Assembly: GCA_019120075.1 (NCBI GenBank)
Contig: DWVT01000135.1
Coordinates: forward strand, 1-35,267
Direction of reading: 5' to 3'
Source: Candidatus Mediterraneibacter excrementigallinarum
Lineage (GTDB): Bacteria; Bacillota; Clostridia; Lachnospirales; Lachnospiraceae
DNA length: 35,267 bases
A program made the translations under genes and the position numbers. Numbering within the stretch: position 1 is the stretch's first letter; each line of letters begins with the position of its first letter. The notes below the pieces were generated by a model. It had not been told where the DNA came from, searched no databases, and was given only the letters and a program-made list of their open reading frames with translations. This document shows, one piece after another, positions 4,228 to 30,766 of this stretch.

Positions 4228-4235
4228 GGTATGTT

Positions 4236-5273: not shown

Positions 5274-5275
5274 GA
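5258..5275. promoter_or_regulatory. perfect palindrome upstream of the exporter genes (candidate operator)
   Basis: TCCTACAA-AA-TTGTAGGA is a perfect 8-bp inverted repeat spanning the kinase stop codon. It lies about 70 bases before the ABC ATPase start. A TTGACG at 5298-5303 downstream could be a -35 element. A binding site for the adjacent response regulator is the natural reading but is inferred. Confidence 0.45.
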
Positions 5276-5346
5276 TTTCTGTCATAATACAGTAGGGTTG
5301 ACGTGTTACTCTTTCTATACAAAAACAGAAAGAGGTGTTATACGAA

Positions 5347-6030: not shown

Positions 6031-8378
6031 GAAGTTATCTGAGTCTGATCCCGATCTCGGCAAAGGTGCGGAAACGCCAGAATCGGATGATGATCCTCTG
6101 TATTATGATATCTGTTCTGCTCGTGACAACAATCTTCAGCGCGGCGGACATGACGATCCGGGGAGAGAGAACCGCAATGATGGAGAAGCACGGGAACTGG
6201 CATATCCGGATAGAGAACCTTTCAGAAAAAGCTGCCGGGGAGATCAGCAGCCGCCCGGACGTCACGGCATCCGGCTGGTTATCCGTATTTAATTTTGATG
6301 CGGACCAGCCCTGGTACATTGGCGACAGAAAAGCCACTCTGTACGGCACAGACGAAACCTATCTGTCTCACCTTGCAGACGGTATAGAAGAAGGAACCTT
6401 TCCACAAAATGACAGAGAAGTGGTGCTCAGTTCCAACGCGAAGCTTGCTCTGGATGTGCAGACCGGAGATCCTGTGACAGTCCGGACACCGGCAGGCGAC
6501 GTCGAACTGACGGTATCCGGCTTCGGATCAGATGATCAGGAGTATTATGAGGGGCAGACATACCTGGTCGCCGTCTATATGACAGAAACAGCCTTTGCAT
6601 CGCTGATGGATGAAAACGGCGTCTCAGACCCCGTCCCGGTCTGCTATGTGCAGTTCCGGAGCGCGGCGAAAGCATCGGATGCGATCACGGAAATCCGGGA
6701 GCAGTATGATCTGCCGCAAGAAAGTATCAGTGAAAATACGGCCGTTATGGGGCTTGCCGGTCAGAGCAGCAGTGAGTCCGTGAAAAATTTCTATGGGATC
6801 GCGGCGGTCCTGTTTGTCCTGGTGCTGCTGGCCGGAGTGCTGATGATCTCCGGAGGAATGAACAGCAATGTTGCCCAGCGTACAAAGTTCTTTGGCATGA
6901 TGCGCTGTATCGGCGCCAGCCGGCAGCAGGTGATCCGTTTCGTAAGGCTGGAGGCGCTGAACTGGTGCAAAACAGCGATCCCGGTCGGCCTGATCGCAGG
7001 TACGGTCATCACCTGGGCGGTCTGCGCGCTGCTGCGTTACGGCATCGGCGGTGAATTTGCGTCTACTCCTGTATTCGCTATCAGCCCGATCGGTCTGGTA
7101 AGCGGTGCGGTGGTCGGACTTATGACGGTTCTGCTGGCGGCCCAGGCTCCGGCAAAACGTGCGGCAAAGGTGTCTCCGATGGCAGCGGTTTCCGGAAACA
7201 GCGGGACGGTCCCGAAAGTGAATCATACGTCAAAGATGCTGTTTGGGAAAGTTGACTGGACATTGGGATTGCATCATGCAACAGCCTCCAAAAAGAACTG
7301 GTTTCTGATGACAGCCAGCTTTTCCCTGAGTATCATCCTGTTTCTCTGTTTTTCAGTGGGACTTGATTTTGCCCATGAACTGATCCCCTCCCTGCGCTCC
7401 TGGCAGCCGGATATCACACTGAACGGATATGCCAATGCGCTTGTGCTGGAACAGGATCTTCTGGATGAGATCCGGCAGGTTCCGCATGTGGAGACAGCCT
7501 ACGGCACCGCATACATGGAAAATGTCCCGGCGGCTTCCCTCGATATGAAATCCGATGCAGGAGAGGAGATCGACCATGTCAATCTGACGTCTTACACAGA
7601 TTATCTGCTGGATTGCGCGGAAGACAGCATTGTGGAGGGGAATCTGTCGGATGTTTATGGAAATACAGGGAGCGTCATGACGATCAGCAATAAAGACAAC
7701 CCTTTACAGGTTGGGGACAGGATCCGGATCGGAGGAAAGGAAGTGAGGATTACCTGTGCGGTTTCTTCCGGTGTGTTCCCCAGTGAATACAGTGTGATCT
7801 GTTCCGAAGAAACATTTGAATGGCTTACAGGCGAAACAGCTTACAGTCTGATCGGGATTAAATTAGACAGTGGTGCAACGGATGAAACGATCCGTCAGAT
7901 CAATGATATGGCAGGCAGTGACATCATCTTCTCTGATCTGCGCAAGGGGAATCAGGAGGACAAGGCAACTTATTTTGCCGCCCAGTTTGTTCTGTACAGT
8001 TTTCTGGCGATCATCGCCATGATCACGCTGTTTAACATGATCAACAGCATTTCAATGAGCGTGACGGCACGGATCCGGCAGTATGGAGCCATGCGGGCAG
8101 TAGGCATGGACGGCGGACAGCTCACGGGCATGGTCATTGCAGAAGCCCTCACTTATGCCGCTTCCGGTCTTGTGGTGGGATGCGCGGCAGGTCTGGCGTT
8201 GAGCCGATACCTGCACATCATGCTGATCACGAAGTATTTCGGTACAGAGTGGAGCCTGCCCGTACCGCTGCTCTGCATTATCGCCGCATTCAACCTTTTC
8301 ACCGCGCTCCTGGCAGCCCGGGCCCCATCCAGACGGATACGCAGTATGGCGATCACAGAAACCATCAACGAATTATAA
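6027..8378 (+). CDS. FtsX-like ABC transporter permease with two FtsX domains
   Basis: This 783-residue membrane protein has one helix near residues 18-40, then a large extracytoplasmic domain. Three helices follow with the FtsX core (GIAAVLFVLVLLAGVLMISG; MRCIGASRQQVIRFV), and the same pattern repeats in the C-terminal half (FLAIIAMITLFNMINSISM; MRAVGMDGGQLTGMV). Duplicated FtsX cores are usual in Gram-positive exporters of antimicrobial peptides or cell-surface lipoproteins. With the ATPase and the upstream two-component system it forms a probable sensing and resistance module. The start is set by the ATGA overlap with the ATPase and the GGGAGG site at about 6014. A GTG at 6018 sits on that site and is rejected. 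Confidence 0.92.
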   Translation: MRSYLSLIPISAKVRKRQNRMMILCIMISVLLVTTIFSAADMTIRGERTAMMEKHGNWHIRIENLSEKAAGEISSRPDVTASGWLSVFNFDADQPWYIGDRKATLYGTDETYLSHLADGIEEGTFPQNDREVVLSSNAKLALDVQTGDPVTVRTPAGDVELTVSGFGSDDQEYYEGQTYLVAVYMTETAFASLMDENGVSDPVPVCYVQFRSAAKASDAITEIREQYDLPQESISENTAVMGLAGQSSSESVKNFYGIAAVLFVLVLLAGVLMISGGMNSNVAQRTKFFGMMRCIGASRQQVIRFVRLEALNWCKTAIPVGLIAGTVITWAVCALLRYGIGGEFASTPVFAISPIGLVSGAVVGLMTVLLAAQAPAKRAAKVSPMAAVSGNSGTVPKVNHTSKMLFGKVDWTLGLHHATASKKNWFLMTASFSLSIILFLCFSVGLDFAHELIPSLRSWQPDITLNGYANALVLEQDLLDEIRQVPHVETAYGTAYMENVPAASLDMKSDAGEEIDHVNLTSYTDYLLDCAEDSIVEGNLSDVYGNTGSVMTISNKDNPLQVGDRIRIGGKEVRITCAVSSGVFPSEYSVICSEETFEWLTGETAYSLIGIKLDSGATDETIRQINDMAGSDIIFSDLRKGNQEDKATYFAAQFVLYSFLAIIAMITLFNMINSISMSVTARIRQYGAMRAVGMDGGQLTGMVIAEALTYAASGLVVGCAAGLALSRYLHIMLITKYFGTEWSLPVPLLCIIAAFNLFTALLAARAPSRRIRSMAITETINEL

Positions 8379-8738: not shown

Positions 8739-10745
8739 TTAAAGATATCCACGTTTCTCCAGTGTATTGAGGATATTTCTTCCTTCTTCTGTTCCGTCGA
8801 TGATTCTTCTTGCGCGAACGCTGTCACCGATGTTGAGGATTTCGATGGAGTCATCGTCCTCGAACGCCTCTCTGATCTGCTGGAGCACCGGATGTTCTGC
8901 CTTCATTCCAAGACATACAAATCCATAGTCGAAAGGAAGTTCTTTCTGCTCACCGTCTGCTTCTACGAGGAAGTTATCCGGGCGAACCTCTTTGAGTGCC
9001 GTGTTCGGCATCTGTTTTACATTGTATTTATTCATCAGAGTATTGATGTCAACTTTGGATACCGGATCGATGCCGTTTCCGATGACCGGCATCATCTCGA
9101 CGATGCTGACGTCAGCTCCGCGCGGAGCAAAGTATTCTACCACATCGAGTCCTACCGCACCTCCGCCGATAACGACAACTTTCTTTCCGGACATGTCTTC
9201 CGGATAGTCATTGTTATTGACGTGCTCGATCATATCGAGGATGCTGTATACTTTGCTTCCCTCTTTTCCGAGGTTCTCATGAAGTCCTGCGATCGGCGGG
9301 AGCAGCGGGGAAGATCCTGTTGCGTTTACGATGATATTCGGCTTCAGGTTTTTGATGAAGTTCACATCTGCTTCCATATTCGTAAAGGCAAAAAGGTTTC
9401 TCAGCTTATTTGTGCGGTGGATCATGTAGTTCGGGAAGTCGGACAGTCTCTTCTTATCCGGGATCTTGGAGATCTCTGCGGCAAGTCCGCCCAGGTAAGG
9501 TTTCTTCTCGATCAGGAATGTGGTGCAGCCGACTTCGGCAGCTGTACAGGCAGCTTCCATACCGGCTGTACCGCCTCCTACAACGACTACGTTGCACGGT
9601 TTTGTTATCTGATGTTTCTTGTAATCCTCGCCCTCTGCAACTGCAGGATTGATGGTACAGCGGATCGGGCGGTTGATGCCGATACGGTTTCCGGCACATC
9701 CGATATTACAGGAGATACACTTCCTGATATCGCAGACATCACCGAATTCAACTTTGTTTACCCATTCCGGATCAGCGATCAGACCACGTCCGATACCGAT
9801 CAGGTCAGCGTCGCCTCTTGCCAGGATGTCCTCGGCAACATGAGGATCACGGATATTTCCCATTGTGACACATGGTTTGTTATATCTTTCTTTTACGGCT
9901 TTCGCCATGTAGGAACGCCATCCGTCCGGGAAATGGTTGGAATCGATCTGGTACTGGATGGAGCCGTTCAGTCCGCAGGAAACGTCGATGACATCCGCCT
10001 CTTTTTCGATATACTGCAGATAGTCAAGGCAGTCGTCCAGAGTATTTCCGCCGTCCATAAATTCATCGGCGCTGATACGGAGGAAGATCGGGAAGAACGG
10101 TCCGACCTGTTTCCTTACTTCTTCCATTACGAGACGGGCAAAGCGTGCTCTGTTTTCAGCGGAACCGCCGAATTCATCTGTTCTCTTGTTTGTGAGAGGA
10201 GAGAGGAACTGGCTGAGGAGGTAAGAGTGTCCGGCATGGATCTCCACACAGTCAAACCCTGCTGTCTGAGCCCGCTTTGCAGCTTCTCCGTATTTCTTTA
10301 CGATGCGCATGATCTCGTCTTTCTCCAGCGGACGCGGAATCTCGCCGCCTTCTTTGGACGGGATATTGGACGCGGATACCGGCTGCATGTTTGTACGGGC
10401 GGACTGCGCGGAAGCGCCGGCATGGTTTAACTGGATTCCAATGCAGGTTCCGTGTTTGTGTATCGTCTCGGTCAGTTTGAAAAGACGGGGAATGTAATTG
10501 TCATGGTCGATGCGGAGCTGTGTTGTTCCGTTGGAGCCCTCCGGAGAGTCAACACTGGCGTTCTCTACCATGATCAGACCTGTGCCGCCTTTTGCGCGCT
10601 GCTCATAGTAATTAATATGGAGGAAACTCATCTCTCCGCTCTGCTCACCGTAGTTTGTTCCCATAGGAGTCATCATGATCCTGTTTTTCAGAGTCATGCG
10701 GCGAACGGTGAAAGGTTCAAAAATGTGTTTGTACTCTTTCTTCAT
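8739..10745 (-). CDS. FMN/4Fe-4S/FAD oxidoreductase of the old yellow enzyme/2,4-dienoyl-CoA reductase family (BaiCD/BaiH-like)
   Basis: This 668-residue protein has three parts. An OYE TIM barrel (1-~335) carries the active-site run EIHAGHSYLLSQFLSP (H170, H173, Y175) and the typical DEFGGSAENRARF. A 4Fe-4S cluster site follows with C343, C346, C350 and C363. Two nucleotide-binding Rossmann motifs come next, VVVVGGGTAGMEAA (FAD) and VVVIGGGAVGLD (NAD(P)H). Family members reduce C=C bonds next to a carbonyl or thioester. Its partners here are quinate/shikimate genes, so 3-dehydroshikimate or another cyclohexene carboxylate is a plausible substrate; that is inference. It is divergent from a LysR gene, with which it shares a 207-base promoter region. 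A bile-acid or dienoyl-CoA role cannot be excluded. Confidence 0.9.
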   Translation of the reverse strand: MKKEYKHIFEPFTVRRMTLKNRIMMTPMGTNYGEQSGEMSFLHINYYEQRAKGGTGLIMVENASVDSPEGSNGTTQLRIDHDNYIPRLFKLTETIHKHGTCIGIQLNHAGASAQSARTNMQPVSASNIPSKEGGEIPRPLEKDEIMRIVKKYGEAAKRAQTAGFDCVEIHAGHSYLLSQFLSPLTNKRTDEFGGSAENRARFARLVMEEVRKQVGPFFPIFLRISADEFMDGGNTLDDCLDYLQYIEKEADVIDVSCGLNGSIQYQIDSNHFPDGWRSYMAKAVKERYNKPCVTMGNIRDPHVAEDILARGDADLIGIGRGLIADPEWVNKVEFGDVCDIRKCISCNIGCAGNRIGINRPIRCTINPAVAEGEDYKKHQITKPCNVVVVGGGTAGMEAACTAAEVGCTTFLIEKKPYLGGLAAEISKIPDKKRLSDFPNYMIHRTNKLRNLFAFTNMEADVNFIKNLKPNIIVNATGSSPLLPPIAGLHENLGKEGSKVYSILDMIEHVNNNDYPEDMSGKKVVVIGGGAVGLDVVEYFAPRGADVSIVEMMPVIGNGIDPVSKVDINTLMNKYNVKQMPNTALKEVRPDNFLVEADGEQKELPFDYGFVCLGMKAEHPVLQQIREAFEDDDSIEILNIGDSVRARRIIDGTEEGRNILNTLEKRGYL

Positions 10746-10853
10746 AGTCTTAATCTCCTGAATGATAATGATTTCGGTTATTGGTTGTTAAATAGAGAGG
10801 TTGTTGAAAAACGGGCGTATTGTCTTTTGCTTAACAATCCGTTTACAAGCTGT

Positions 10854-10882
10854 ATTATAAAAGAAATTATCGTATAAAACAA
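10854..10882 (-). promoter_or_regulatory. promoter of the reductase gene with an inverted-repeat half site
   Basis: On the minus strand TTGTTT (10882-10877), a 17-base spacer and TATAAT (10859-10854) give a good promoter and a ~100-nt leader. GTATAAAA (10872-10879) overlaps it and is repeated inverted as TTTTATAC at 10931-10938, near the LysR start. These are candidate LysR contacts. Confidence 0.6.
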
Positions 10883-10892
10883 ATGCATATTT

Positions 10893-10921
10893 TTGATGGA
10901 ATCTATAGAAATAGTTAATAA
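10893..10921 (+). promoter_or_regulatory. promoter of the first LysR gene
   Basis: TTGATG (10893-10898), 17 bases and TAATAA (10916-10921) precede the LysR gene. The inverted half site TTTTATAC (10931-10938) lies just downstream, consistent with autorepression. Confidence 0.5.
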
Positions 10922-10952
10922 TTTGTGATATTTTATACAAAGAGGTGATCAT

Positions 10953-11834
10953 ATGAATCTGAATCAGCTGCATTATTTTTCCAAGCTCGCAGAAGTGGAG
11001 CATTATACGAAGGCGGCGGAGGAACTCGGGATCTCTCAGCCGACTCTCAGCCATGCGGTCGGAGCTCTTGAGACGGAACTGGGGACAAAGCTGTTTGAGA
11101 AGCAGGGAAGGAATATAACATTGACAAAATACGGTAAGATTTTCCGGGAATATGTGGATGAATCTATAAAAACACTGGACGCCGGTGTGAAAAAGGTCCG
11201 TTCTCTGACAGGTCAGACGGAGGGCGTGATCGAACTGGGGTACATCTATACGCTTGGAAGCGAGTTTGTCCCGTCGCTGGTCAGTGATTTTATACGTACT
11301 CACGAAGAACTGAAGGTGAAGTTCCATTTCACGGTGGGAAATACCTCCGATATCATACAGGGTCTGAAGGAGGAAAAGTATGATATCGGGTTCTGCTCCA
11401 TGGCGGAGAAGGAAAGCGGAATCCAGTTTACGCCTGTGGGGACGGAGAATCTGGTCGTTGTGGTCCCGAAAGGACATCCGCTTTCCTATGAAAAGGCCAT
11501 AGATCTTGAACAGGCGGCGGCTTATCCGCAGATCTTTTATACGCCGAACAGCGGTCTTCGGCCGGTTGTGGACCGGATGTTTGAACAGATAAAGGTGAAG
11601 CCGGAGATCGCCTATGAAATCGAGGAAGACGGGTGTATGGCGGGACTGGTGTCACAGAATTTCGGGATTGCAGTGATGCCGGAGATCCCGGTCTTAAGTC
11701 AGCTCAGTGTGGATATTGTTCCGCTCCGCAATCAGCATGAAAAGAGATATGTATATATGGCGAGATCCAGAGACACGTTTCAGCCGCCCCTGGTGCACCG
11801 GTTCGCGGAATATGTCAGAAATCGCGGGATGTAA
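10953..11834 (+). CDS. LysR-family transcriptional regulator (adjacent to the reductase)
   Basis: This 293-residue LysR protein has the N-terminal winged helix MNLNQLHYFSKLAEVEHYTKAAEELGISQPTLSHAVGALETELG, here quoted only as its span 1-44 with key SQPTLSHAV, then a linker helix and a two-lobe effector domain (about 90-293). It is divergent from the reductase, the classic layout for a LysR activator of its neighbour. Its ligand is probably a hydroaromatic acid, by analogy with shikimate-responsive QuiR of Listeria, which controls a comparable gene set; that is inference. The ATG at 10953 has an AGAGGTG site. Its end faces the second LysR gene, 61 bases away. Confidence 0.92.
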   Translation: MNLNQLHYFSKLAEVEHYTKAAEELGISQPTLSHAVGALETELGTKLFEKQGRNITLTKYGKIFREYVDESIKTLDAGVKKVRSLTGQTEGVIELGYIYTLGSEFVPSLVSDFIRTHEELKVKFHFTVGNTSDIIQGLKEEKYDIGFCSMAEKESGIQFTPVGTENLVVVVPKGHPLSYEKAIDLEQAAAYPQIFYTPNSGLRPVVDRMFEQIKVKPEIAYEIEEDGCMAGLVSQNFGIAVMPEIPVLSQLSVDIVPLRNQHEKRYVYMARSRDTFQPPLVHRFAEYVRNRGM

Positions 11835-11895
11835 AGTCCCGCCGGGAGGACCGGCGGAGATGGGGAAAATCCCGGGCAGGACAGAGGACTGCCGC

Positions 11896-12786
11896 TCAGG
11901 TATCCAGCCGTGTTCCTTCCTTTTTAATGAAAGAAATGAAATTCCTGACAGCAGGAATCTGGTAATGATCCTTCAGGTATCCCATGTATACGGTATGTCT
12001 CAGGCTGACATCGCTTAAATGGAGCTTTTCCAGAGGAAAGTGATCCAGTATATCCACATCCGCTACGAGAGCGATGCCGAAGTCTTCCGCCACAAGTGAT
12101 GCAATGGCGTTTTCATCCGGTGATTCACATACAATATTCGGGGTGATCGAATAGGCGTCAAAAGTCCGTCTGGTAAAACGTCCCAGACCGGAAGTCCTGT
12201 CATATCCCATCAGGGGATAGCGTTCCAGGTCTTTCAGTACGGGCGCCTTTTTACGGGCGAGGGGATGGCCCAGAGGCGTGATGATGATCATTTCCTGGTT
12301 CAGGATCGGGACAAACTGGATTTCCGGCTCATTTTCCACATAGGAACCGAAGATGACATCGTACTGCTCTGATTTCAGTCCGGCTACCATCTCGGCGGTA
12401 TAAGTCTGGCGGAAACTGAAACTGATATTTTCATTATTATTTCCGGCGAGAAATCGTCGGACTGTGTGGGGAATATACCTGGCGGCAAGGGGGAAGACGT
12501 AGGCGATATCCACATGTCCGGAATTTCCCGAGAGTTTTTTCATATGTTTCTCTGCGAGCCGGACGTCATCAAGGATCCGGTCTGTATGCTCGAGGAAGAT
12601 CTTTCCATATTTTGTGAGTGTGACCGTGCGGCCTTTCCGCTCAAACAGAATGATCCCGAGTTCCTTTTCCAGGTTGGAGATGGAGTGGCTCAGGGACGGC
12701 TGAGAGATGTTAAGTTCAGAGGCCGCGAGGCGGAAATGCTGGCAGCGGGCAACAGTCTGAAAGTAGATAAGCTGATTCAGTGTCAT
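11896..12786 (-). CDS. LysR-family transcriptional regulator (adjacent to aroE)
   Basis: This 296-residue LysR protein is clearly paralogous to the preceding one: LNQL-YF near the start, ASELNISQPSLSHSISNLEKELG, and a shared YGKIF after LTK. The effector domain includes IITPLGHPLARKKAP. It is divergent from aroE across a 191-base region that carries a typical LysR box at 12837-12853. Start: ATG at 12786 with AAAGGAG upstream on the minus strand. It probably controls the aroE-MFS-aroD-TRAP unit in response to quinate or shikimate. A short GC-rich hairpin (CCGCCGG-GAGGA-CCGGCGG, 11839-11857) lies between the two convergent regulators. Confidence 0.92.
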   Translation of the reverse strand: MTLNQLIYFQTVARCQHFRLAASELNISQPSLSHSISNLEKELGIILFERKGRTVTLTKYGKIFLEHTDRILDDVRLAEKHMKKLSGNSGHVDIAYVFPLAARYIPHTVRRFLAGNNNENISFSFRQTYTAEMVAGLKSEQYDVIFGSYVENEPEIQFVPILNQEMIIITPLGHPLARKKAPVLKDLERYPLMGYDRTSGLGRFTRRTFDAYSITPNIVCESPDENAIASLVAEDFGIALVADVDILDHFPLEKLHLSDVSLRHTVYMGYLKDHYQIPAVRNFISFIKKEGTRLDT

Positions 12787-12822
12787 GGCTCTGCTCCTTT
12801 CTAAAAAACTCCCTTTTGTAGT

Positions 12823-12853
12823 ATTATACTATAAATGATAGTTTAAAACTATC
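12823..12853. promoter_or_regulatory. LysR-type operator between lysR and aroE
   Basis: GATAGTTT-A-AAACTATC (12837-12853) is a perfect inverted repeat of the ATAG-N7-CTAT (T-N11-A) class used by LysR proteins. A third half site, ACTAT, at 12829-12833 forms a second inverted repeat with ATAGT. On the minus strand TATAAT (12828-12823) is a good -10 for the lysR gene, so binding here would autorepress it while activating aroE. Confidence 0.7.
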
Positions 12854-12873
12854 AAAAAAGTTAAAAAGATATA

Positions 12874-12903
12874 TTGGAACTATAATATATAATTGCGTAT
12901 AAT
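12874..12903 (+). promoter_or_regulatory. promoter of the aroE operon
   Basis: TTGGAA (12874-12879), an 18-base spacer and TATAAT (12898-12903) lie just downstream of the LysR box. The start would be near 12910, leaving a ~68-nt leader with the AAGGAG site at 12964-12969. Confidence 0.6.
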
Positions 12904-12977
12904 AAAGTCAGAGAGGTTGTTTGATATTTAACAAACAAGAGCAACAATCAACAATATTTAAAAAAGGAGAAAAAATC

Positions 12978-13856
12978 ATGGCAGAGAGAATCACAGGACA
13001 CACAGAACTGATCGGCCTGATGGCTTACCCGATCAGACATTCAAGTTCACCGGCAATGCACAACGAGGCGTTCGCGACTCTGGGACTTGATTATGCTTAC
13101 CTTGCATTTGAGGTAGACAACAGCACTCTTGAGGACGCCATCAAAGGTCTTCGTGCTTTAAAAATGGTAGGATCCAACATTTCCATGCCGAATAAGACTG
13201 TTGTAGGACAGTATCTGGATGAGCTTTCACCGGCAGCTCAGATGTGCGGTGCAGTAAATACTATCGTGAACGACAACGGAAAGCTGATCGGACACATCAC
13301 AGACGGTATCGGTTACATGCAGTCCTTAAAAGACAATGACATTGATGTGATCGGAAAGAAGATGACTATTGCAGGCGCAGGCGGAGCTGCAAAGGCAATC
13401 GAGGTGCAGGCTGCTCTTGACGGAGTAAAAGAGATCTCTATCTTCAACATCAAAGATAAATTCTGGGAGGCAGCGGAGAAGACAGTGGAGACGATCCGCA
13501 ATAACACAGACTGTATCGTAAATCTGTACGATCTGGATGACAAAGAGAAATTAAGAGAAGAGATCGCAGACAGCTATCTTTTCGCACAGGCAACAGGCGT
13601 TGGAATGAAACCCCTTGAGGGACAGTCCGTGATCCCGGATAAATCTTTCTTCCGCCCGGATCTGATCGTGACAGATACGATCTACGCTCCGAGAGAGACT
13701 CTGACTCTGAAGATGGCAAAAGAGGCAGGATGCCGCAAGACGATGAACGGTCTCGGAATGATGCTCTTCCAGGGGGATGCAGCGTTCTATCTGTGGACAG
13801 GCAAGCACATGCCGATCGATCATATGAAAGAAGTCCTCGACATCAAATATGACTAA
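12978..13856 (+). CDS. aroE: shikimate/quinate 5-dehydrogenase
   Basis: This 292-residue dehydrogenase interconverts shikimate and 3-dehydroshikimate, and in YdiB-like members also quinate and 3-dehydroquinate. The substrate serines are in HSSSPAMHN (S22, S24), catalytic Lys73 is in SMPNKTVV and Asp109 in HITDGIGY. The Rossmann loop is GAGGAAKAI. After the second strand it reads FNIKDKFW (D160) instead of the NRT-type NADPH motif of biosynthetic AroE. An acidic residue there suggests NAD(H) use and a catabolic YdiB-like role. Start ATG 12978 follows AAGGAG; an upstream TTG extension (12921) is non-homologous. First gene of the operon with the MFS carrier, aroD and the TRAP transporter. Confidence 0.92.
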   Translation: MAERITGHTELIGLMAYPIRHSSSPAMHNEAFATLGLDYAYLAFEVDNSTLEDAIKGLRALKMVGSNISMPNKTVVGQYLDELSPAAQMCGAVNTIVNDNGKLIGHITDGIGYMQSLKDNDIDVIGKKMTIAGAGGAAKAIEVQAALDGVKEISIFNIKDKFWEAAEKTVETIRNNTDCIVNLYDLDDKEKLREEIADSYLFAQATGVGMKPLEGQSVIPDKSFFRPDLIVTDTIYAPRETLTLKMAKEAGCRKTMNGLGMMLFQGDAAFYLWTGKHMPIDHMKEVLDIKYD

Positions 13857-13893
13857 AAGATAAAGAGAGAGGAAAGAGAGGGAAATAAAAAAC

Positions 13894-15081
13894 ATGAATA
13901 AGAAATATGTGCCAAGCGCGCTTATCCTTTATTTAAACTATTTTATCCATGGTATCGGATGCTCTATCTTAAGCCAGCAGGTAGTAAAAGAACTTCTTGC
14001 AGAGCAGTGGGGTATGAGCGGTGTAATGAGTGTTACGGCAGTGGCCGCAGCATTGGGACTGGGACGTCTGATCTCCCTTCCGTTTGCAGGCCCGCTGTCT
14101 GACAAATTCGGAAGAAGGATCTCTGTCCTGATCGGATGCTTCTCCTATGTGATCTTTTTCGTTGGTATCGCATTCTCACCGAATATGACTATCGCATATG
14201 TGGCAGCAGTTCTCGGAGGTATCGCAAACTCCTTCCTTGATACAGCTACATATCCGGCAGTTGCAGAGATCATCTACAAATACACAGGTATCGCGACAAT
14301 GGGAATCAAGCTGTTCATCTCTGTTGCGCAGCTTCTCCTGCCGTTCTTCCTGGGACTCTGTGTAGGAACATCTATGTCTTACCTGACGCTTCCTCTGGTA
14401 TGCGGTATTGTGATCGCAGTACTTGGCGTACTTGCTATCTTTGCTCCCCTTCCGAAGGTTGAGGGTGTAGGAAAAGGCGAGTCCTTCCTGAACAACTTAA
14501 AGAGCGCTCACTTCTCAGTAGAAAGTGTTGCCCTGATCCTGATCGGTTTCACATGTACTGCTACATTCCAGCTGTGGCTGAACTGTGCGCAGACATTCGG
14601 TACAGAAGTTGCAGGCATCGCATCTGAAGATGTTTCCATGATGCAGACATATTATTCTGCAGGAACACTTGTTGCTCTGTTTGTTACAAGCGCCCTGATC
14701 ACAAAGTTCAAACAGGTACGTTTCCTGGTGATCTATCCGGCGATCTCACTGATAATGCTGGTTCTTGTTTACATGATCAAGAGCCCGATGATCTGCTATG
14801 TAGGTGCATTCGTGATCGGTTACGCAGGAGCCGGCGGAGTGCTTCAGATGGCGACAGCTGTTGCAAACGATCTGTTCCCGAAGATCAAAGGTACACTTAC
14901 CAGCCTCGTTATGATCGCGTCCAGTCTCTGTAACTACACGATCCTGACAGCGGCTTCCAATATGACTGCATCCGGTGTTATAATCATGAATATCGTGATC
15001 ACTGTCATCGGTATCCTTCTTGCGCTGTTCGTCAACGCAAGATATGGAGTCCTGCTGAAAAACGCAGACACATCCAAATAA
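13894..15081 (+). CDS. MFS transporter, probable shikimate/quinate carrier
   Basis: This 395-residue protein has about 12 hydrophobic segments and the MFS motif A after the second (GPLSDKFGRR). It lies 37 bases after aroE and before aroD. That context, as in QsuA/ShiA-like carriers of quinate/shikimate gene sets, points to hydroaromatic acid uptake or exchange. Export of a reduced end product in exchange for substrate is equally possible. The family is certain, the substrate is inferred. Confidence 0.88.
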   Translation: MNKKYVPSALILYLNYFIHGIGCSILSQQVVKELLAEQWGMSGVMSVTAVAAALGLGRLISLPFAGPLSDKFGRRISVLIGCFSYVIFFVGIAFSPNMTIAYVAAVLGGIANSFLDTATYPAVAEIIYKYTGIATMGIKLFISVAQLLLPFFLGLCVGTSMSYLTLPLVCGIVIAVLGVLAIFAPLPKVEGVGKGESFLNNLKSAHFSVESVALILIGFTCTATFQLWLNCAQTFGTEVAGIASEDVSMMQTYYSAGTLVALFVTSALITKFKQVRFLVIYPAISLIMLVLVYMIKSPMICYVGAFVIGYAGAGGVLQMATAVANDLFPKIKGTLTSLVMIASSLCNYTILTAASNMTASGVIIMNIVITVIGILLALFVNARYGVLLKNADTSK

Positions 15082-15098
15082 TAAACAGAATTGAAAAG

Positions 15099-15147
15099 AG
15101 GCAGCAGGCCGGGGCGGCGCGGAAAACGCCGTTTCGTGACGCTGCCT
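15099..15147 (+). other. GC-rich hairpin between the MFS gene and aroD
   Basis: AGGCAGC (15099-15105) pairs with GCTGCCT (15141-15147), with an inner GGCG/CGCC pairing. No T-run follows, so an mRNA processing or stability element, or a weak attenuator, is more likely than a strong terminator. Confidence 0.5.
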
Positions 15148-15244
15148 TCCTGTGGTTAAAAAGGCGCGGTTTACAGCTGTCTTTGAGTACAGTGTGAACT
15201 GCAGCGTAAAAGTATCAAATTCACTGACAGGAGGAAGAATAAGA

Positions 15245-16006
15245 ATGAATCCGGTAAAAGTAAGAAATGTAGAGATCGGAACAGGTATTCCGAAGATCTG
15301 TGTTCCCATCGTGGGAGTTACAAGAGAAGAGATCCTTAAAGCGGCGGAGACGATAAAGACGACAGCTGCAGACGTGGTCGAGTGGCGTGTGGACTGGTAC
15401 GAAGATATCTTTGACTTCGGAAAAACAGAGGAGACGATGAAAGCGCTCAGAGATGTGCTTGGAGATACGCCGATCCTGTTTACATTCCGTACATCCAAAG
15501 AAGGCGGAGAGAAAGCGATCGAGACAGACGCATATGTTGAGCTGAACCAGAAAGCGGCAAAGACAGGTCTGATCGATCTGGTCGATATCGAGGCTTTCAC
15601 AGGGGACGATGCAGTAAAAGCTGTTGTTGAGACAGCTCATGAGTGCGGTGTGAAAGTAGTTGCTTCCAACCACGATTTCCACAAGACTCCGGAAAAGGAT
15701 GAGATCGTATCCCGACTCCGCAAGATGCAGGATCTGGGAGCGGATATCCCGAAGATCGCGGTAATGCCGCAGAGCAAGAAGGATGTCCTGACACTTCTGT
15801 GTGCGACAGAGGAGATGGCGACAGAGTATGCAGACCGCCCGATCATTACCATGTCCATGTCTGGAACCGGCGTGATCAGCCGCCTGTGCGGAGAGGTGTT
15901 CGGCTCCGCGCTGACATTCGGAGCAGTAGGAAAGGCTTCCGCACCGGGACAGATGGGAGCGGAGGATCTGCAGACTGTTCTGGGACTTCTTCACAAGAGC
16001 CTTTAA
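15245..16006 (+). CDS. aroD: 3-dehydroquinate dehydratase, type I
   Basis: This 253-residue class I enzyme interconverts 3-dehydroquinate and 3-dehydroshikimate by a Schiff-base mechanism. The catalytic residues fall at the E. coli AroD positions: H143 (SNHDFHKTP), K170 (IPKIAVMPQS) and R213 (GTGVISRLCGE). EWRVDWYED and FRTSKEGGE line the site. Start ATG 15245 has a strong AGGAGG; the upstream in-frame extension is not conserved. Its place next to aroE and transporters, away from other aromatic biosynthesis genes, indicates a catabolic or interconversion role. Confidence 0.95.
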   Translation: MNPVKVRNVEIGTGIPKICVPIVGVTREEILKAAETIKTTAADVVEWRVDWYEDIFDFGKTEETMKALRDVLGDTPILFTFRTSKEGGEKAIETDAYVELNQKAAKTGLIDLVDIEAFTGDDAVKAVVETAHECGVKVVASNHDFHKTPEKDEIVSRLRKMQDLGADIPKIAVMPQSKKDVLTLLCATEEMATEYADRPIITMSMSGTGVISRLCGEVFGSALTFGAVGKASAPGQMGAEDLQTVLGLLHKSL

Positions 16007-16088
16007 GTATAATCATCTTATATTGATTTTCGCGAATGAAATGGGAGATGAAGATGTTTCTCGTCTCCCTTTAATTAGGAGAATTTTT

Positions 16089-16580
16089 ATGAAAAAAGCA
16101 ATTAACTGGATTGACGAGTATCTGGAAGAGGTACTCCTGGTGGCTGCTCTTGCAGCCATGGCGGTGATCATGGGAGTGCAGGTGTTCTGCAGATATGTGC
16201 TTGGCGCCTCGCTGTCCTGGTCTGAGGAGCTGACCAGGTATATTTTTATCTGGGCAGGATTTTTGAGCGTCAGCTATTGTACGAAAAAATGTATTTCCAT
16301 CAAGATCGAACAGTTTGTCGCGCTGTTTCCGAAACGCGGCAAGGCGATGTTCAAGGTGGTAAACCACACGTTTGAACTGATCCTGTTCCTTTATCTGATT
16401 CCGTTTGCGTGGAAATATCTGATGTCCGCCGTGGCAAACGGGCAGACAAGTCCGGCTATGGAGATTCCGATGTATTATGTACAGGCAGCGCCCCTGGTAG
16501 GATTTATCCTTTCTGCGATCCGTGTACTTCAGAGGTGGATCGCGGAGTTCAATTCAGTGCGCCGGAAAGGAGGAGAGTGA
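16089..16580 (+). CDS. dctQ: TRAP transporter small permease (DctQ)
   Basis: This 163-residue membrane protein has four helices and the DctQ signature (VFCRYVLGASLSWSEELTRY, then FIWAGFLSVSYC). It is the small subunit that joins the large permease in sodium-driven TRAP uptake of organic acids. ATG 16089 follows TAGGAGA; the upstream ORF extension is not membrane-like. The stop is one base from the dctM start. It belongs to the aroE-aroD operon, so its substrate is probably quinate or shikimate. Confidence 0.92.
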   Translation: MKKAINWIDEYLEEVLLVAALAAMAVIMGVQVFCRYVLGASLSWSEELTRYIFIWAGFLSVSYCTKKCISIKIEQFVALFPKRGKAMFKVVNHTFELILFLYLIPFAWKYLMSAVANGQTSPAMEIPMYYVQAAPLVGFILSAIRVLQRWIAEFNSVRRKGGE

Positions 16581-16581
16581 G

Positions 16582-17871
16582 ATGTCGGCTGTTGTTTTAT
16601 TTATTATTTTTGTCGTGTGCCTGGTCATCGCGATCCCGGTCTCCATCTCGCTTGGGATTGTTTCCGTGCTTCCCGGGGCGGTGGATCCGTCGTTTACGGC
16701 AAGCGCGACCTATGTGATACGATCCATGCTGGGAGGACTTGACAGTTTCCCGCTCCTTGCGGTGCCCATGTTCGTACTGTCCGGGATCATCATGGCCCGG
16801 GGAGGAATCTCAAGAAAACTGTTTGATGTGTTTGCCTATTTCATGGGGAAGAGGACGGCGGGCATGCCCTGTGCCGTGATCGTGACCTGTCTGTTTTACG
16901 GAGCGATCTCCGGTTCCGGACCGGCGACTGTGGCGGCAGTAGGAAGCATGACCATCCCGATCCTGATCGAGATGGGGTACGATAAGAAATTTACCACTGC
17001 TCTGGTAGCCGTGGCAGGAGGACTGGGAGTTATCATACCGCCCAGTATCCCCTTCATTATGTACGGGTCCGCTTCGGGGGCTTCCGTCAGCGACCTGTTT
17101 ATCGCCGGCATCATCCCGGGACTTCTGATCGGCGGGCTCCTGATGGTCTATGCATTCTACTACTGCAAGAAAAACGGTGAAGACCAGGAAAAGAAGATGG
17201 TGGTAGTCGGCGCGCTCCATGAGCGGGGGCTGTTCCGTGTATTGAAGGACAGCGCGTTCGCTCTTCTGAGCCCGGTCATCATCCTTGGCTGCATCTACAC
17301 AGGAATCGCTTCTCCGACAGAGGCAGCGGTCATTTCCGTGTTCTATGCACTGTTGATCAGTATGCTGGTCTATAAGACGATTAAGGTGAAGGACATCTGG
17401 GCGATCCTTGTGGAGTCCATACGCACTTATGCTCCGATCCTGTTTATCCTTGCGGCGGCGATCGCATTTTCAAGAGTGCTGACTCTGATGCAGGTTCCTC
17501 AGGCGATCAGCACATGGATCCTGGCCCACTTTACGAATCCTGTGATCCTTCTTCTTGTCATCAACGGATTCCTGCTGATCGTGGGAATGGTCATGGATAC
17601 GACGCCTGCGATTCTTATACTGACACCGATCCTTCTCCCGATCGTGGAGTCCATCGGGATGGATCCGATCCATTTCGGTGTGATGATGGTGGTGAACCTT
17701 GCAATCGGTTTTGTCACTCCGCCTATCGGAGTCAATCTGTTTGTGGCAAGTTCGCTTACGGAGGTGCCCCTTATGGAGATCGCAAAACATGCGTTGCCTA
17801 TGATCCTGTATTTCCTTGTGGCGCTTCTGATCATCACATTTGTTCCGGCGGTCAGCCTGGCGCTGCTGTAA
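16582..17871 (+). CDS. dctM: TRAP transporter large permease (DctM)
   Basis: This 429-residue protein has the usual DctM length and many membrane helices. It carries the family segments GGLDSFPLLAVPMFVLSG, SGSGPATVAAVG, GVIIPPSIPFIMYG, SPTEAA and FVTPPIGVNLFVA. It forms the transport channel of the TRAP system. The ATG at 16582 has AAAGGAGGAG directly upstream within the end of dctQ. dctP follows 28 bases later, giving a complete Q-M-P set. Confidence 0.95.
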   Translation: MSAVVLFIIFVVCLVIAIPVSISLGIVSVLPGAVDPSFTASATYVIRSMLGGLDSFPLLAVPMFVLSGIIMARGGISRKLFDVFAYFMGKRTAGMPCAVIVTCLFYGAISGSGPATVAAVGSMTIPILIEMGYDKKFTTALVAVAGGLGVIIPPSIPFIMYGSASGASVSDLFIAGIIPGLLIGGLLMVYAFYYCKKNGEDQEKKMVVVGALHERGLFRVLKDSAFALLSPVIILGCIYTGIASPTEAAVISVFYALLISMLVYKTIKVKDIWAILVESIRTYAPILFILAAAIAFSRVLTLMQVPQAISTWILAHFTNPVILLLVINGFLLIVGMVMDTTPAILILTPILLPIVESIGMDPIHFGVMMVVNLAIGFVTPPIGVNLFVASSLTEVPLMEIAKHALPMILYFLVALLIITFVPAVSLALL

Positions 17872-17899
17872 CGGCGGGTTTATACGGAAGGAGACAGTT

Positions 17900-18901
17900 A
17901 TGAGAAAGAAAAATATTTTTGCGGCTGCTGTGGTGCTTGCCGCGGCCGGAGTTCTGGCGGGATGCGCCTCCGGGAAGGTTGGAGAGCAGCGGTACGCGTA
18001 TCCGCTGGGAACGGCGAGCCCGGAGGACACAGTGACCCAGATCTATGCGGAAAAGTTCGTTGAGGAAGTGGACCGCCTCAGCGAAGGAAGGATCAAGATC
18101 ACGGTCTATCCCAACAGTGTGCTTGGCGGAGACCGGGAACTTCTGGAGAGCTGTTATGACGGGGATATCCCGTTTGTGATCCAGAACACAGCGCCTCAGG
18201 TCAGCTTTATCGACGATACGGCAGTGTTCGACGCGCCCTGTATCTTCAGCGACATCGAGTCGGTCAGGGAGACAGTGGATCAGCCGGAATTCCTGGAAAA
18301 GATGCAGGAGTCTTACCGGGAATCTGGATTTGAACTCCTGGGATATGCGGATCAGGGGTTCCGCGTCATGTCCACGAACAAGGCTGTCAGGGAGTTCTCT
18401 GACTTTAAAGGACAGAAGATCCGGACCATGGAAGATGCCTATCAGCTCGCTTTCTGGCAGCAGCTGGGGGCAAATCCGACGCCGATGAACTTCAGCGAAG
18501 TCTATATCGGACTTCAGCAGCATACCATTGACGCTCAGGAGAATCCTTATGAAGTTATCGTGTCCAACCGCCTCTATGAGCAGCAGGACTATATCGTTGA
18601 GACGAATCATGTGCCTCACCTTATCTCTCTTGTGGTGAGCGAGGATTTCTTTAAAGATCTTCCGGAGGAAGACCAGCAGATCCTGATCAAAGCGGAGGAG
18701 ATCGCAAAGGAATATGCGAGAGAGCAGTCCGATGAGAGGATCGACGACAGGATCCAGACCATCCGGGACAGCGGAACCGAGATCATCACGCTGGACGGCT
18801 CTGTCAGGGAAGAGATGATCCAGGCAAGTGAGCCGGTATATGAGGAGATCCAGGAGGTTGTGGATCCGGAGATCTACAGGCTGTATACCGGGAATGAATA
18901 A
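17900..18901 (+). CDS. dctP: TRAP transporter substrate-binding lipoprotein (DctP)
   Basis: This 333-residue binding protein starts with a lipoprotein signal (lipobox LAGC). The family features are FVEEVDRLSEGRIKITVYPN, the carboxylate-binding region KGQKIRTMEDAYQ with its key arginine, GANPTPMNFSEVYIGLQQ and DAQENPYEVI. DctP proteins bind organic acids through that arginine. In this operon, with aroE and aroD, quinate, shikimate or dehydroshikimate is the best guess. Start ATG 17900 follows AAGGAGA. Last gene of the island, followed by a terminator. Confidence 0.94.
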   Translation: MRKKNIFAAAVVLAAAGVLAGCASGKVGEQRYAYPLGTASPEDTVTQIYAEKFVEEVDRLSEGRIKITVYPNSVLGGDRELLESCYDGDIPFVIQNTAPQVSFIDDTAVFDAPCIFSDIESVRETVDQPEFLEKMQESYRESGFELLGYADQGFRVMSTNKAVREFSDFKGQKIRTMEDAYQLAFWQQLGANPTPMNFSEVYIGLQQHTIDAQENPYEVIVSNRLYEQQDYIVETNHVPHLISLVVSEDFFKDLPEEDQQILIKAEEIAKEYAREQSDERIDDRIQTIRDSGTEIITLDGSVREEMIQASEPVYEEIQEVVDPEIYRLYTGNE

Positions 18902-19097: not shown

Positions 19098-19144
19098 TAA
19101 CTGATATTCGAAAAACTATACAATATAGATGAGAGGGAATGATT

Positions 19145-20029
19145 ATGAGCTTTATATCGTATTTAGTTAACGGATTGAGTCTTGGAAGTGTGTATGCGAT
19201 CATTGCCCTGGGATACACCATGGTGTACGGAATAGCGAAGATGCTGAACTTTGCCCATGGAGATATTATCATGGTAGGTGCTTACATCGCCCTGATGAGT
19301 ATGACCCAGGCAGGCCTGCCGCCTTTTGCTGCCGTACTTGTTGCGGTAGTTGGATGTACGGTGCTCGGTGTCCTGATCGAGAGGATCGCTTACAAACCGC
19401 TGAGGAATGCGTCTTCCTCGCTGGCTGTTCTGATCACTGCGATCGGCGTCAGCTACCTGCTTCAGAACCTGGCGCTTCTGATCTTCGGAGCGAATACCCA
19501 GACTTTCAGTTCTGTGGTCAAATGGAAAGGCGTTACTCTCGCGGACGGAGCTATGAGCATCTCCGGCGTGACCATCGTTACGATCGTGGTGTGTATCATC
19601 ATCATGGCAGTGCTGGTCACTTTCGTGCAGAAGTCAAAGCCGGGGCAGGCAATGCGCGCTGTCTCCGAGGATAAAGGGGCAGCACAGCTTATGGGAATCA
19701 ACGTGAACGGCACGATCGCGCTGACTTTTGCGATCGGTTCCGCTCTGGCAGCGATCGCGGGCGTGCTTCTCTGTTCTGCTTACCCGAGCCTGACACCATA
19801 TACCGGAGCGATGCCCGGTATCAAAGCTTTCGTCGCGGCAGTATTCGGCGGGATCGGCTCGATCCAGGGAGCATTTATCGGAGGACTTCTCCTTGGGATC
19901 ATCGAGATCCTGGGAAGAGCCTATATCTCTTCACAGATGGCGGACGCTCTGGTGTTTGCCGTTCTGATCATCGTGCTTCTTGTGAAGCCTACCGGTATAC
20001 TTGGAAAACAGATTCAGGAGAAAGTGTAG
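19145..20029 (+). CDS. livH: branched-chain amino acid ABC transporter permease LivH
   Basis: This 294-residue permease has the LivH opening (FISYLVNGLSLGSVYAIIAL, then GYTMVYGIAKMLNFAHGDI). Later come RAVSEDKGAAQLMGIN (the ATPase contact) and AFVAAVFGGIGSIQGAFIGG. It forms the membrane channel with LivM. I chose the ATG at 19145; the ATG at 19139 is only one or two bases from the GAGAGGG site. First gene of a tight livHMGF operon. Confidence 0.93.
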   Translation: MSFISYLVNGLSLGSVYAIIALGYTMVYGIAKMLNFAHGDIIMVGAYIALMSMTQAGLPPFAAVLVAVVGCTVLGVLIERIAYKPLRNASSSLAVLITAIGVSYLLQNLALLIFGANTQTFSSVVKWKGVTLADGAMSISGVTIVTIVVCIIIMAVLVTFVQKSKPGQAMRAVSEDKGAAQLMGINVNGTIALTFAIGSALAAIAGVLLCSAYPSLTPYTGAMPGIKAFVAAVFGGIGSIQGAFIGGLLLGIIEILGRAYISSQMADALVFAVLIIVLLVKPTGILGKQIQEKV

Positions 20030-20041
20030 GTGAAGGTCGAG

Positions 20042-21109
20042 ATGAAGAAGATAAAGAATATGAACAAAAATACAAAGAACAATCTGATCACTTACGGGAT
20101 TGTTATCGTTGCGTTTATTGTGATGCAGACGCTGATCAGTACAGGAAGCGTTTCAAGTCTTCTGGAAGGACTGATGGTGCCGCTGTGCATCTATATCATC
20201 CTTGCTGTTTCGCTGAACCTTGTGGTCGGAATTCTCGGTGAGCTGAGCCTGGGACACGCAGGCTTTATGTGCGCGGGAGCGTTTTCCAGCGCGTTTTTCT
20301 CCAAATGCATGAAGGATGTGATCGAAAACGGAACGCTGCGTTTCATCCTTGCCCTTCTGATCGGGATCGCCGTTGCGGCGGTGTTCGGAATCATTATCGG
20401 AATTCCGGTACTCCGTCTGAAAGGTGATTACCTGGCTATCGTTACACTGGCATTCGGCGAGATCATCAAGAACCTGGTCAATGTGGTTTTCATCGGAAGG
20501 GACTCCAACGGATTCCACTTTTCCACAAAGGACGTAATGGCTCTGAATATGGAGCCGGACGGAGAGGTTCTTGTAAACGGTCCTCAGGGAATCACGGGAA
20601 CCCCGAAGGATTCCACGTTCCTGATCGGAGTGATCCTGATCCTGATCACACTGTTTATTGTGATCAACCTGATCAATTCCCGTGACGGACGCGCGATCAT
20701 GGCGATCCGCGACAACCGCATTGCGGCGGAGTCTGTTGGAATCAATATCACAAAATATAAACTGATGGCGTTTACCATATCTGCAGCCCTTGCGGGAGGG
20801 GCGGGCGTGCTGTATGCCCATAACCTTTCCACACTGACGGCAAACACGAACAACTTCGGATATAACATGTCCATCAATATCCTTGTATTCGTTGTGCTCG
20901 GCGGCATCGGAAATATCAGAGGCTCCATGATAGCGGCAGTCATCCTGACCCTCCTCCCGGAGCTGCTCAGAGGACTTTCCGATTACCGTATGCTGATCTA
21001 CGCGATCGTCCTGATCCTCATGATGCTCTTCAACTGGGCGCCCAAGTCCATTGAGTGGAGAGAAAAGTACCTTTCCTTCGGAAAGAAGAAAAAGGAGGTT
21101 GTAAAATAA
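20042..21109 (+). CDS. livM: branched-chain amino acid ABC transporter permease LivM
   Basis: This 355-residue permease has SLNLVVGILGELSLGHAGFM, LRLKGDYLAIVTLAFGEI, AIRDNRIAAESVGINITKYK (ATPase contact) and VLGGIGNIRGSMIAA, all LivM signatures. It pairs with LivH. The ATG at 20042 is preferred over the GTG at 20030 because AGGTGAAGG lies before it. Its stop overlaps the livG start (TAATG at 21107-21111). Confidence 0.93.
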   Translation: MKKIKNMNKNTKNNLITYGIVIVAFIVMQTLISTGSVSSLLEGLMVPLCIYIILAVSLNLVVGILGELSLGHAGFMCAGAFSSAFFSKCMKDVIENGTLRFILALLIGIAVAAVFGIIIGIPVLRLKGDYLAIVTLAFGEIIKNLVNVVFIGRDSNGFHFSTKDVMALNMEPDGEVLVNGPQGITGTPKDSTFLIGVILILITLFIVINLINSRDGRAIMAIRDNRIAAESVGINITKYKLMAFTISAALAGGAGVLYAHNLSTLTANTNNFGYNMSINILVFVVLGGIGNIRGSMIAAVILTLLPELLRGLSDYRMLIYAIVLILMMLFNWAPKSIEWREKYLSFGKKKKEVVK

Positions 21110-21870
21110 TGGCTGCATTACTGGATGTAAAGAATCTGGGCATTTCATTCGGTGGATTGAGAGCTGTGAACGGCTTTGACATTTCCATTGAAAAGGAACA
21201 GCTCTACGGACTGATCGGACCCAACGGTGCCGGCAAGACGACAGTGTTCAACCTTCTGACAGGAGTATATAAACCGGATGCGGGAAAGGTCATACTGGAC
21301 GGACAGGATATCACTGGAAAGAAGACGATTGATATCAGCAAGGCCGGGATCGCCAGGACATTCCAGAATATCCGTCTGTTTTCAAAACTGAGTGTGCTTG
21401 ACAATGTCAAGGTGGGACTCCACAACAAGCACCACTACTCAACAATAGAGGGAATATTAAGACTTCCCGGATACCGGAAAGTGGAAAAAGAGATGAATGA
21501 GCAGGCAATGGAGCTGCTGAGAGTATTTGATCTTGCAGACCATGCGGATTATCTTGCGTCAAACCTTCCATACGGACAGCAGAGAAGGCTGGAGATCGCG
21601 CGGGCGCTCGCGACGGAACCGAAGCTTCTGCTCCTGGATGAACCGGCTGCGGGAATGAATCCCAACGAGACCGGGGAACTGATGGAAATGATCCAGTTTG
21701 TGAGAGAAAAGTTCCACATGACCATCCTTCTGATCGAGCATGACATGAAACTGGTCAGCGGGATCTGCGAGAAACTGACGGTGCTGAACTTCGGCGAGGT
21801 GCTCGCACAGGGAGATACGGCGTCCGTGCTCAATGATCCGCAGGTTATCACGGCATATCTTGGAGAGTAG
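21109..21870 (+). CDS. livG: branched-chain amino acid ABC transporter ATPase LivG
   Basis: This 253-residue ATPase has Walker A GPNGAGKTTVFN, the LivG-specific FQNIRLFSKLSVLDNV, signature LPYGQQRRLEIARAL, Walker B LLLLDEPAAGMN and the H-loop IEHDMKL. It starts within the livM stop with an AAAGGAGG site, so it is translationally coupled. With LivF it powers the transporter. Confidence 0.95.
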   Translation: MAALLDVKNLGISFGGLRAVNGFDISIEKEQLYGLIGPNGAGKTTVFNLLTGVYKPDAGKVILDGQDITGKKTIDISKAGIARTFQNIRLFSKLSVLDNVKVGLHNKHHYSTIEGILRLPGYRKVEKEMNEQAMELLRVFDLADHADYLASNLPYGQQRRLEIARALATEPKLLLLDEPAAGMNPNETGELMEMIQFVREKFHMTILLIEHDMKLVSGICEKLTVLNFGEVLAQGDTASVLNDPQVITAYLGE

Positions 21871-21882
21871 GAGGAAACGGCT

Positions 21883-30649: not shown

Positions 30650-30766
30650 GAGTTGCCCGAGATATCATTCTGATTGGATAGGAGAAAGGAGATTCCCCTG
30701 TCCGATTTTAAGAAAAGGAAAGGGAGAGAAAAGATGCGGGAGAATAATGAAAGTAAGGGGAAAAAG

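Follow-up and report, generated by a model that had tools for sequence, protein, structure and literature searches.

A quinate/shikimate gene cluster with a candidate 3-dehydroshikimate ene-reductase in Candidatus Mediterraneibacter excrementigallinarum and its relatives

What role does an old yellow enzyme (OYE)-type reductase play among genes for quinate and shikimate metabolism? The question is raised by a 35,267-nt stretch of DNA (the window; contig DWVT01000135.1) from the genome of Candidatus Mediterraneibacter excrementigallinarum (G000, 94% complete), in which positions 8739–18901 encode nine proteins: the OYE, two LysR-type regulators, a shikimate/quinate dehydrogenase (SDH) of the YdiB/Listeria type, a major facilitator superfamily (MFS) transporter, a type I 3-dehydroquinate dehydratase (AroD), and the three components of a full tripartite ATP-independent periplasmic (TRAP) importer. 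Families were assigned by NCBIfam and Pfam profile scans of the nine proteins, and every gene named in a preliminary description of the window was found in place. That description portrayed the block as an island with a reductive, not aromatising, enzyme set, in which imported hydroaromatic acids from plants serve as an electron sink. This interpretation is partly supported here and is strengthened by the linkage of the OYE to shikimate genes, with the reductive step itself proposed from sequence.

Quinic acid makes up one half of chlorogenic acid, a major coffee phenolic. Lactobacillus reportedly reduces quinate and shikimate to dihydroxycyclohexane carboxylate, a pathway that Whiting and Coggins are said to have described in terms of products and enzymes, with no genes. 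The overall chemistry proposed here (dehydrogenation, dehydration, hydrogenation) is the same, whereas the window cluster is known from genes alone. For the gut, a 2024 study cites a proposal that quinic acid is degraded via oxidative and reductive routes and calls knowledge of the enzymes "mostly lacking" (PMC11602726). A search by title and abstract, which had most subscription journals and bioRxiv outside its reach, returned no gene assignment for reductive quinate/shikimate metabolism.

The reductase subfamily and its linkage to shikimate genes

The OYE (8739–10745, minus strand, 668 aa), a predicted Fe-S/FMN/FAD enzyme, belongs to the FadH/BaiCD-like Fe-S OYE superfamily, as indicated by matches to PF00724 (270 bits) and PF07992 (104 bits). 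Similar to BaiCD, the long form of bilirubin reductase, FadH, and 2-naphthoyl-CoA reductase, it possesses this domain architecture, a four-cysteine cluster, and a conserved Tyr. In contrast to the first two enzymes, it scores well below the family cut-offs for BaiCD (NF041087, 478 versus 825 bits) and long-form bilirubin reductase (NF045599, 351.8 versus 750 bits), and both assignments were rejected. Comparison with FadH (1ps9) and with 6qkg (named NCR, which we take to be 2-naphthoyl-CoA reductase) reveals a His pair that is present only in the OYE, as well as Asn260 at a position where both other proteins have His.

Among 116 distinct near-full-length OYE sequences (hits shorter than 560 aligned residues were removed, as were those containing stops or X), identity to the window OYE leaps from 39% to 54%, with none between 40 and 53%; a single shorter segment at 49% lies outside this near-full-length set. 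In a midpoint-rooted FastTree phylogeny of 98 of the 116 sequences, from which genus members 85–99% identical were excluded except for two, the ortholog group (73 of the 98) is monophyletic with a support of 100. Cys343, Cys346, Cys350, Cys363, His170, His173, and Tyr175 are invariant in 91 of 91 subfamily sequences, and Tyr175 aligns with a FadH Tyr that is presumably catalytic. Furthermore, Ser71, Asn107, Arg117, Asn260, Gln264, Gln266, Asp268, and Asp274 are each found in at least 97% of the subfamily and in at most 15% of 25 paralogs. The full list of subfamily-specific residues is largely polar, although it includes some non-polar residues, and the polar ones would suit a hydroxylated acid substrate. 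In L070 (3590–7370), a 490-aa frame that contains a transposase domain (DUF772) interrupts the OYE gene.

The co-occurrence of these families, proposed in the preliminary description as a survey, was examined in named genomes, taking the best 80 of 444 relatives (hereafter the named loci). SDH is found near the OYE in 71 of these loci, AroD in 64, the MFS transporter in 62, and the TRAP subunit DctM in 50; SDH or AroD is present in 71. Seven of the nine loci with neither are contigs that end within 1.8 kb of the 5' side of the OYE. All eight distant-ortholog loci (49–67% identity; L065–L069, L082–L084) carry SDH, AroD, or the type II dehydroquinase AroQ, compared with none of 16 sampled control loci around OYE paralogs of at most 40% identity (L085–L088, L206–L217), a difference with a Fisher p of 1.4e-6 that ignores kinship. 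In one of the distant loci (L067), the neighbours of the OYE are SDH and a type II dehydroquinase (PF01220) in place of the type I enzyme. As the two dehydroquinases are non-homologous and catalyze the same step, this substitution is the strongest pointer to an OYE acting next to 3-dehydroshikimate. Another distant locus (L068) has OYE, SDH, and MFS duplicated in tandem. The reverse search, for SDH at E ≤ 1e-95, found matches in five of 391 class genomes, four of which carry the OYE; in the fifth (G339, L218), the SDH looks, by eye, like the lone second SDH in the window genome. Judged from sequence and gene neighbourhood, the window OYE belongs to an orthologous subfamily of its own, whose members keep company with shikimate genes. 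This linkage, which extends across many genera, argues for 3-dehydroshikimate or an adjacent hydroaromatic acid as the substrate.

The dehydrogenase, the dehydratase, and a proposed reductive exit

The SDH (12978–13856, plus strand) exceeds the cut-off of NF001313 (515.4 versus 431 bits) and lies slightly under that of the quinate/shikimate dehydrogenase model NF009390 (334 versus 349 bits). Its FNIKD motif aligns with FNRRD of 1vi2, preserving the acidic position at the NAD site of YdiB, an Asp that presumably contributes to cofactor binding there. Consistent with this, the enzyme is predicted to be NAD-type and YdiB-like. The closest solved structure is 3tnl/3toz, which we take to be the Listeria enzyme in complex with NAD. 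AroD (15242–16006, plus strand; PF01487) is well over the TIGR01093 cut-off (265 versus 139 bits) and has the motifs SNHDF and KIAVMP, which presumably supply the catalytic His and Lys of dehydroquinases; its closest solved relative is 3js3.

These matches invite comparison with the quinate/shikimate (qui) genes of Listeria, which lie at lmo0488–0491 and lmo2233–2236. In addition to the SDH match, a TIM barrel found in some relatives of the window cluster belongs to the Lmo2234 family (2g0w). Unlike the Listeria genes, the window cluster has a TRAP importer, and no Lmo2234-type enzyme was found in the window genome. One study describes lmo0489 and the other OYE homologs of Listeria as catalysing reactions that are yet to be elucidated (PMC10269891).

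From the gene content, gene order, orthology, and phylogenetic linkage observed in these genomes, we infer the likely substrates, direction, product, and regulation, and favour, with moderate confidence, a cluster that takes up and interconverts hydroaromatic acids and provides a reductive exit. First, the TRAP and MFS carriers would import quinate and/or shikimate. Next, the NAD-type SDH would oxidize quinate to 3-dehydroquinate, or shikimate to 3-dehydroshikimate, while dehydration by AroD would link 3-dehydroquinate and 3-dehydroshikimate. The OYE, using NAD(P)H, may then reduce the C=C bond of 3-dehydroshikimate that is conjugated to the ketone, after which SDH-type enzymes could reduce the leftover ketone to give dihydroshikimate-like cyclohexane acids. 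The net outcome would be the consumption of reducing power, and thus a putative electron sink. AroD would double for aromatic biosynthesis, in which imported shikimate would also be usable.

Uptake and cleavage of hydroxycinnamoyl esters may be added in some relatives by an enzyme of the feruloyl-esterase family and a permease of the GntP type. Four loci (L040, L041, L045, L055) contain an alpha/beta hydrolase of PF20434 (BD-FAE, feruloyl-esterase family) and a GntP permease between AroD and the TRAP subunit DctQ; the hydrolase gene occurs in six of the 80 named loci (one cut) and the permease in five. The nearest solved structures of the hydrolase are lipases and esterases, including an acetyl xylan esterase, so cleavage of chlorogenate is a suggestion only.

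A more specific proposal is that the OYE subfamily comprises 3-dehydroshikimate ene-reductases that open a fermentative reductive quinate/shikimate pathway in gut Clostridia, which we advance tentatively and regard as somewhat more apt to fail than to hold. Following C=C reduction, the C5 hydroxyl would be beta to the ketone, as is the C1 hydroxyl of dehydroquinate, and may therefore undergo another AroD-catalysed elimination. Ketone reduction by SDH-type enzymes may then yield 3,4-dihydroxy- or 3,4,5-trihydroxycyclohexane carboxylate; a second type of SDH is found in 15 of the 80 named loci, eight of which also hold a cluster-type SDH. If true, the cluster would act as an electron sink and give genetic access to the route from quinate via cyclohexanecarboxylate to hippurate. 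It would supply the first steps of the gut quinate to hexahydrobenzoate route named in PMC11602726, and the genes seen in the cluster leave the onward dehydroxylation to cyclohexanecarboxylate unexplained. A recurring enzyme that could finish the dehydroxylation was sought among the unannotated frames of the 80 named loci, and none emerged as the commonest family; that family was instead a chorismate mutase-shikimate kinase fusion (23 loci), which is not a dehydratase. One recognisable reductase subfamily with its neighbours marks a candidate reductive cluster in named species with cultured strains among them (Coprococcus comes, Roseburia inulinivorans, Blautia hansenii, Anaerostipes, Faecalicatena), and these candidate genes in cultured carriers make the open question of the gut quinate-reduction enzymes testable.

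Salvage, aromatisation, and other roles for the reductase

Several observations weigh against a dedicated reductive pathway. With regard to linkage, two of the 80 named loci (L159, L163) have longer flanks and an OYE with neither SDH nor AroD, and two of the six class genomes with the OYE (G358, G396) have no SDH match at E ≤ 1e-95, although G358 has SDHs at 50% and G396 has AroD nearby. Of the 16 control loci, nine belong to the genus of the window genome and several are short-flanked; the paralogous OYE2 copies that adjoin the cluster in some genomes are not part of this control set. An AlphaFold model of the OYE, built on 11 sequences, was mediocre (predicted local distance difference test score of 72.9) and was given no weight as evidence.

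With regard to biosynthesis, the window AroD is the sole PF01487 match in the window genome, and a search of that genome for a type II dehydroquinase (PF01220) found none. As AroD is the only dehydroquinase found and aroB is present, together with 3-deoxy-D-arabino-heptulosonate 7-phosphate (DAHP) synthase, AroD must also serve aromatic biosynthesis, and its presence is no proof of catabolism. A purely catabolic cluster, with a separate biosynthetic paralog elsewhere, is rejected on these grounds, and this part of the hydroaromatic-acid interpretation did not survive. The only other SDH of the window genome is, by eye, also YdiB-like, and the SDH of the cluster may thus have a partly biosynthetic role. 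In addition, a chorismate mutase-shikimate kinase fusion is present in 24 of the 80 (tblastn; domains checked in one example), within 750 bp of the OYE end in 11 of the 24, and DAHP synthase in four. The shared AroD and the shikimate kinase show the cluster to be woven into aromatic biosynthesis and that imported shikimate probably has two fates.

The same observations favour an explanation based on salvage only, wherein imported quinate or shikimate feeds chorismate synthesis and the OYE contributes a side activity or protection from an enone intermediate. A decayed cluster in an OYE-lacking genus member (L095), in which AroD is retained while SDH is cut, MFS is split, and the OYE is absent, is likewise consistent with salvage. 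However, within the genus the OYE is more conserved (86–98%) than the adjoining LysR genes (67–94%). Moreover, a type I dehydroquinase occurs in 57 of 58 genus genomes, and when the AroD locus was read in 18 of the 35 OYE-lacking members, 17 had no cluster-type SDH beside AroD (some of these flanks being short), indicating that biosynthesis manages without the cluster. To our knowledge, known salvage requires no ene-reductase. Salvage as the sole function is considered unlikely.

A second explanation, for which we see a rather slim chance, assigns the OYE to the hydroxycinnamate portion of chlorogenic-type esters, on which it would act as an enoate reductase (caffeate to dihydrocaffeate), while SDH and AroD handle the ring half. 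The feruloyl-esterase-family gene in six of the named loci would fit such a role, as would the Fe-S architecture that 2-enoate reductases share with the OYE. Nevertheless, the OYE accompanies SDH or AroD (71 of 80) far more often than the esterase (six of 80), and it lies next to a type II dehydroquinase in L067.

Conversion of 3-dehydroshikimate to protocatechuate or gallate is a third explanation. Aromatising qui/qsu/qa catabolism has quinate/shikimate dehydrogenase and dehydroquinase in common with the window cluster, and further evidence against an exclusively reductive cluster comes from a second module, composed of an OYE paralog (about 31%) and an Lmo2234-type TIM barrel, that lies beside the first cluster in eight of the 80 named and two of the eight distant loci (L065, L084). 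This module is mostly accompanied by SDH and MFS; in the eight named loci, another SDH adjoins it in seven and L172 is cut at that point. The best PDB match of the TIM barrel is 2g0w (Lmo2234; E 2.6e-90), of a family that we take to be the QuiC2 dehydroshikimate dehydratase. An OYE beside an SDH is thus not by itself a sign of a reductive end product, and reduction and aromatisation are not mutually exclusive in the wider group.

In contrast to aromatising systems, no known type of dehydroshikimate dehydratase was found in the window genome. In agreement with the preliminary description, the NCBIfam and Pfam scans assign no dehydroshikimate dehydratase or decarboxylase name to any of the nine proteins in the block; with respect to protocatechuate decarboxylase and ring-cleavage enzymes the scans covered these nine proteins, no genome-wide search for the decarboxylase having been made. 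The Lmo2234-type query found no match in the window genome, a search that lacked a positive control there, although by tblastn this query picked up relatives in L084 and the eight named loci. No QuiC was detected, with a model that exceeded its cut-off in none of 14 control genomes either. The 10 best of 15 PF01261 matches were scanned, the remaining five falling outside the scan, and none was named as a dehydroshikimate dehydratase, a result that does not extend to AsbF-like enzymes. The "not aromatising" label therefore stands for the window genome as far as tested and may not extend to the eight relatives that carry the second module with its own OYE. For the window cluster itself, aromatisation is very improbable. 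Finally, a general ene-reductase that detoxifies plant enones and is co-regulated with plant-acid uptake would accord with the YqjM-like His-His-Tyr residues but is scarcely credible given that linkage to SDH and dehydroquinase genes is specific to the subfamily (0 of 16 paralog loci).

Cluster layout, distribution, and surroundings

Within the hydroaromatic-acid cluster favoured here, LysR1 (10953–11834, plus strand) is divergent from the OYE and points away from it, while LysR2 (11896–12786, minus strand) points away from the SDH-MFS-AroD-TRAP run; both match PF00126 and PF03466 and keep their positions in the genus loci. This layout suggests two transcription units. A 9-bp perfect inverted repeat with a T-N11-A motif (12836–12854) lies between LysR2 and SDH and is a weak candidate for a LysR site: its arms are partly conserved in an alignment of 18 intergenic regions, the window's among them, and dinucleotide shuffling of the window stretch that holds the repeat gave 9-bp arms in 55 of 2000 cases. 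No long inverted repeat was found in the OYE-LysR1 intergenic region. The transport genes are all on the plus strand and comprise the MFS transporter (13894–15081; PF07690), the TRAP small permease DctQ (16089–16580; PF04290), the large permease DctM (16582–17871; TIGR00786, PF06808), and the solute-binding protein DctP (17897–18901; TIGR00787, PF03480).

The OYE ortholog is found in 23 of 58 genus genomes, the window genome included, at 86–98% identity, three of them being partial (G002, G005, G046). Of the 41 genomes sampled alongside them from other genera, none reaches E 1e-100. G021 and G056 reach this threshold solely through paralogs of 34–35% identity. The ortholog occurs in six of 391 class genomes, again including the window genome, and in a phylum sample 12 of 398 genomes pass E 1e-125, seven of them by homologs of at most 40% identity. 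The OYE, both LysR genes, SDH, MFS, and AroD are present in conserved order in 16 of 18 larger genus loci, a recurrence that goes beyond chance; L048 and L054, the other two, are truncated by a contig end within the cluster. In L057 the sequence continues past AroD without TRAP genes, and L046 is without DctP. The closest records with names belong to Candidatus Mediterraneibacter and related metagenome-assembled genomes, many from chicken. The 80 named loci come from carriers such as Coprococcus comes, Roseburia inulinivorans, Blautia hansenii, Blautia massiliensis, Anaerostipes, Faecalicatena, Robinsoniella, Intestinibacter, Terrisporobacter, Sarcina ventriculi, and Absicoccus porci.

The G+C content of the cluster (0.494) shows no difference from that of its flanks (0.496 and 0.485), ruling out an island by base composition. 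What does remain of the island idea is that the site differs between species, being within a branched-chain amino-acid ABC (ATP-binding cassette) operon in some and elsewhere in others. In the window, such an ABC system is split, with its binding protein at 2250–3425 and its permeases and ATPases at 19139–22593, on either side of the cluster. In L042, L043, L045, and L046 the cluster lies directly between these two parts, which suggests that several species carry it within what was once a liv operon. In the window, genes for a two-component system and an ABC/FtsX exporter (3538–8378) separate the liv binding protein from the OYE; these come after the OYE in L040 and L041, and not in L042 and L043.

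Two further genes of the window were noted. The one at 336–1619 (plus strand) joins, in a single frame, a D-lyxose isomerase (PF07385, aa 1–222) to a putative restriction-endonuclease domain of the Uma2 family (PF05685, aa 258–397), an odd fusion; a 428-aa homolog with the same start lies in L120. The protein encoded at 30674–31714 (plus strand) contains a DNA/RNA non-specific endonuclease domain (PF13930) that follows what appears, by eye, to be a lipoprotein-like N-terminus.

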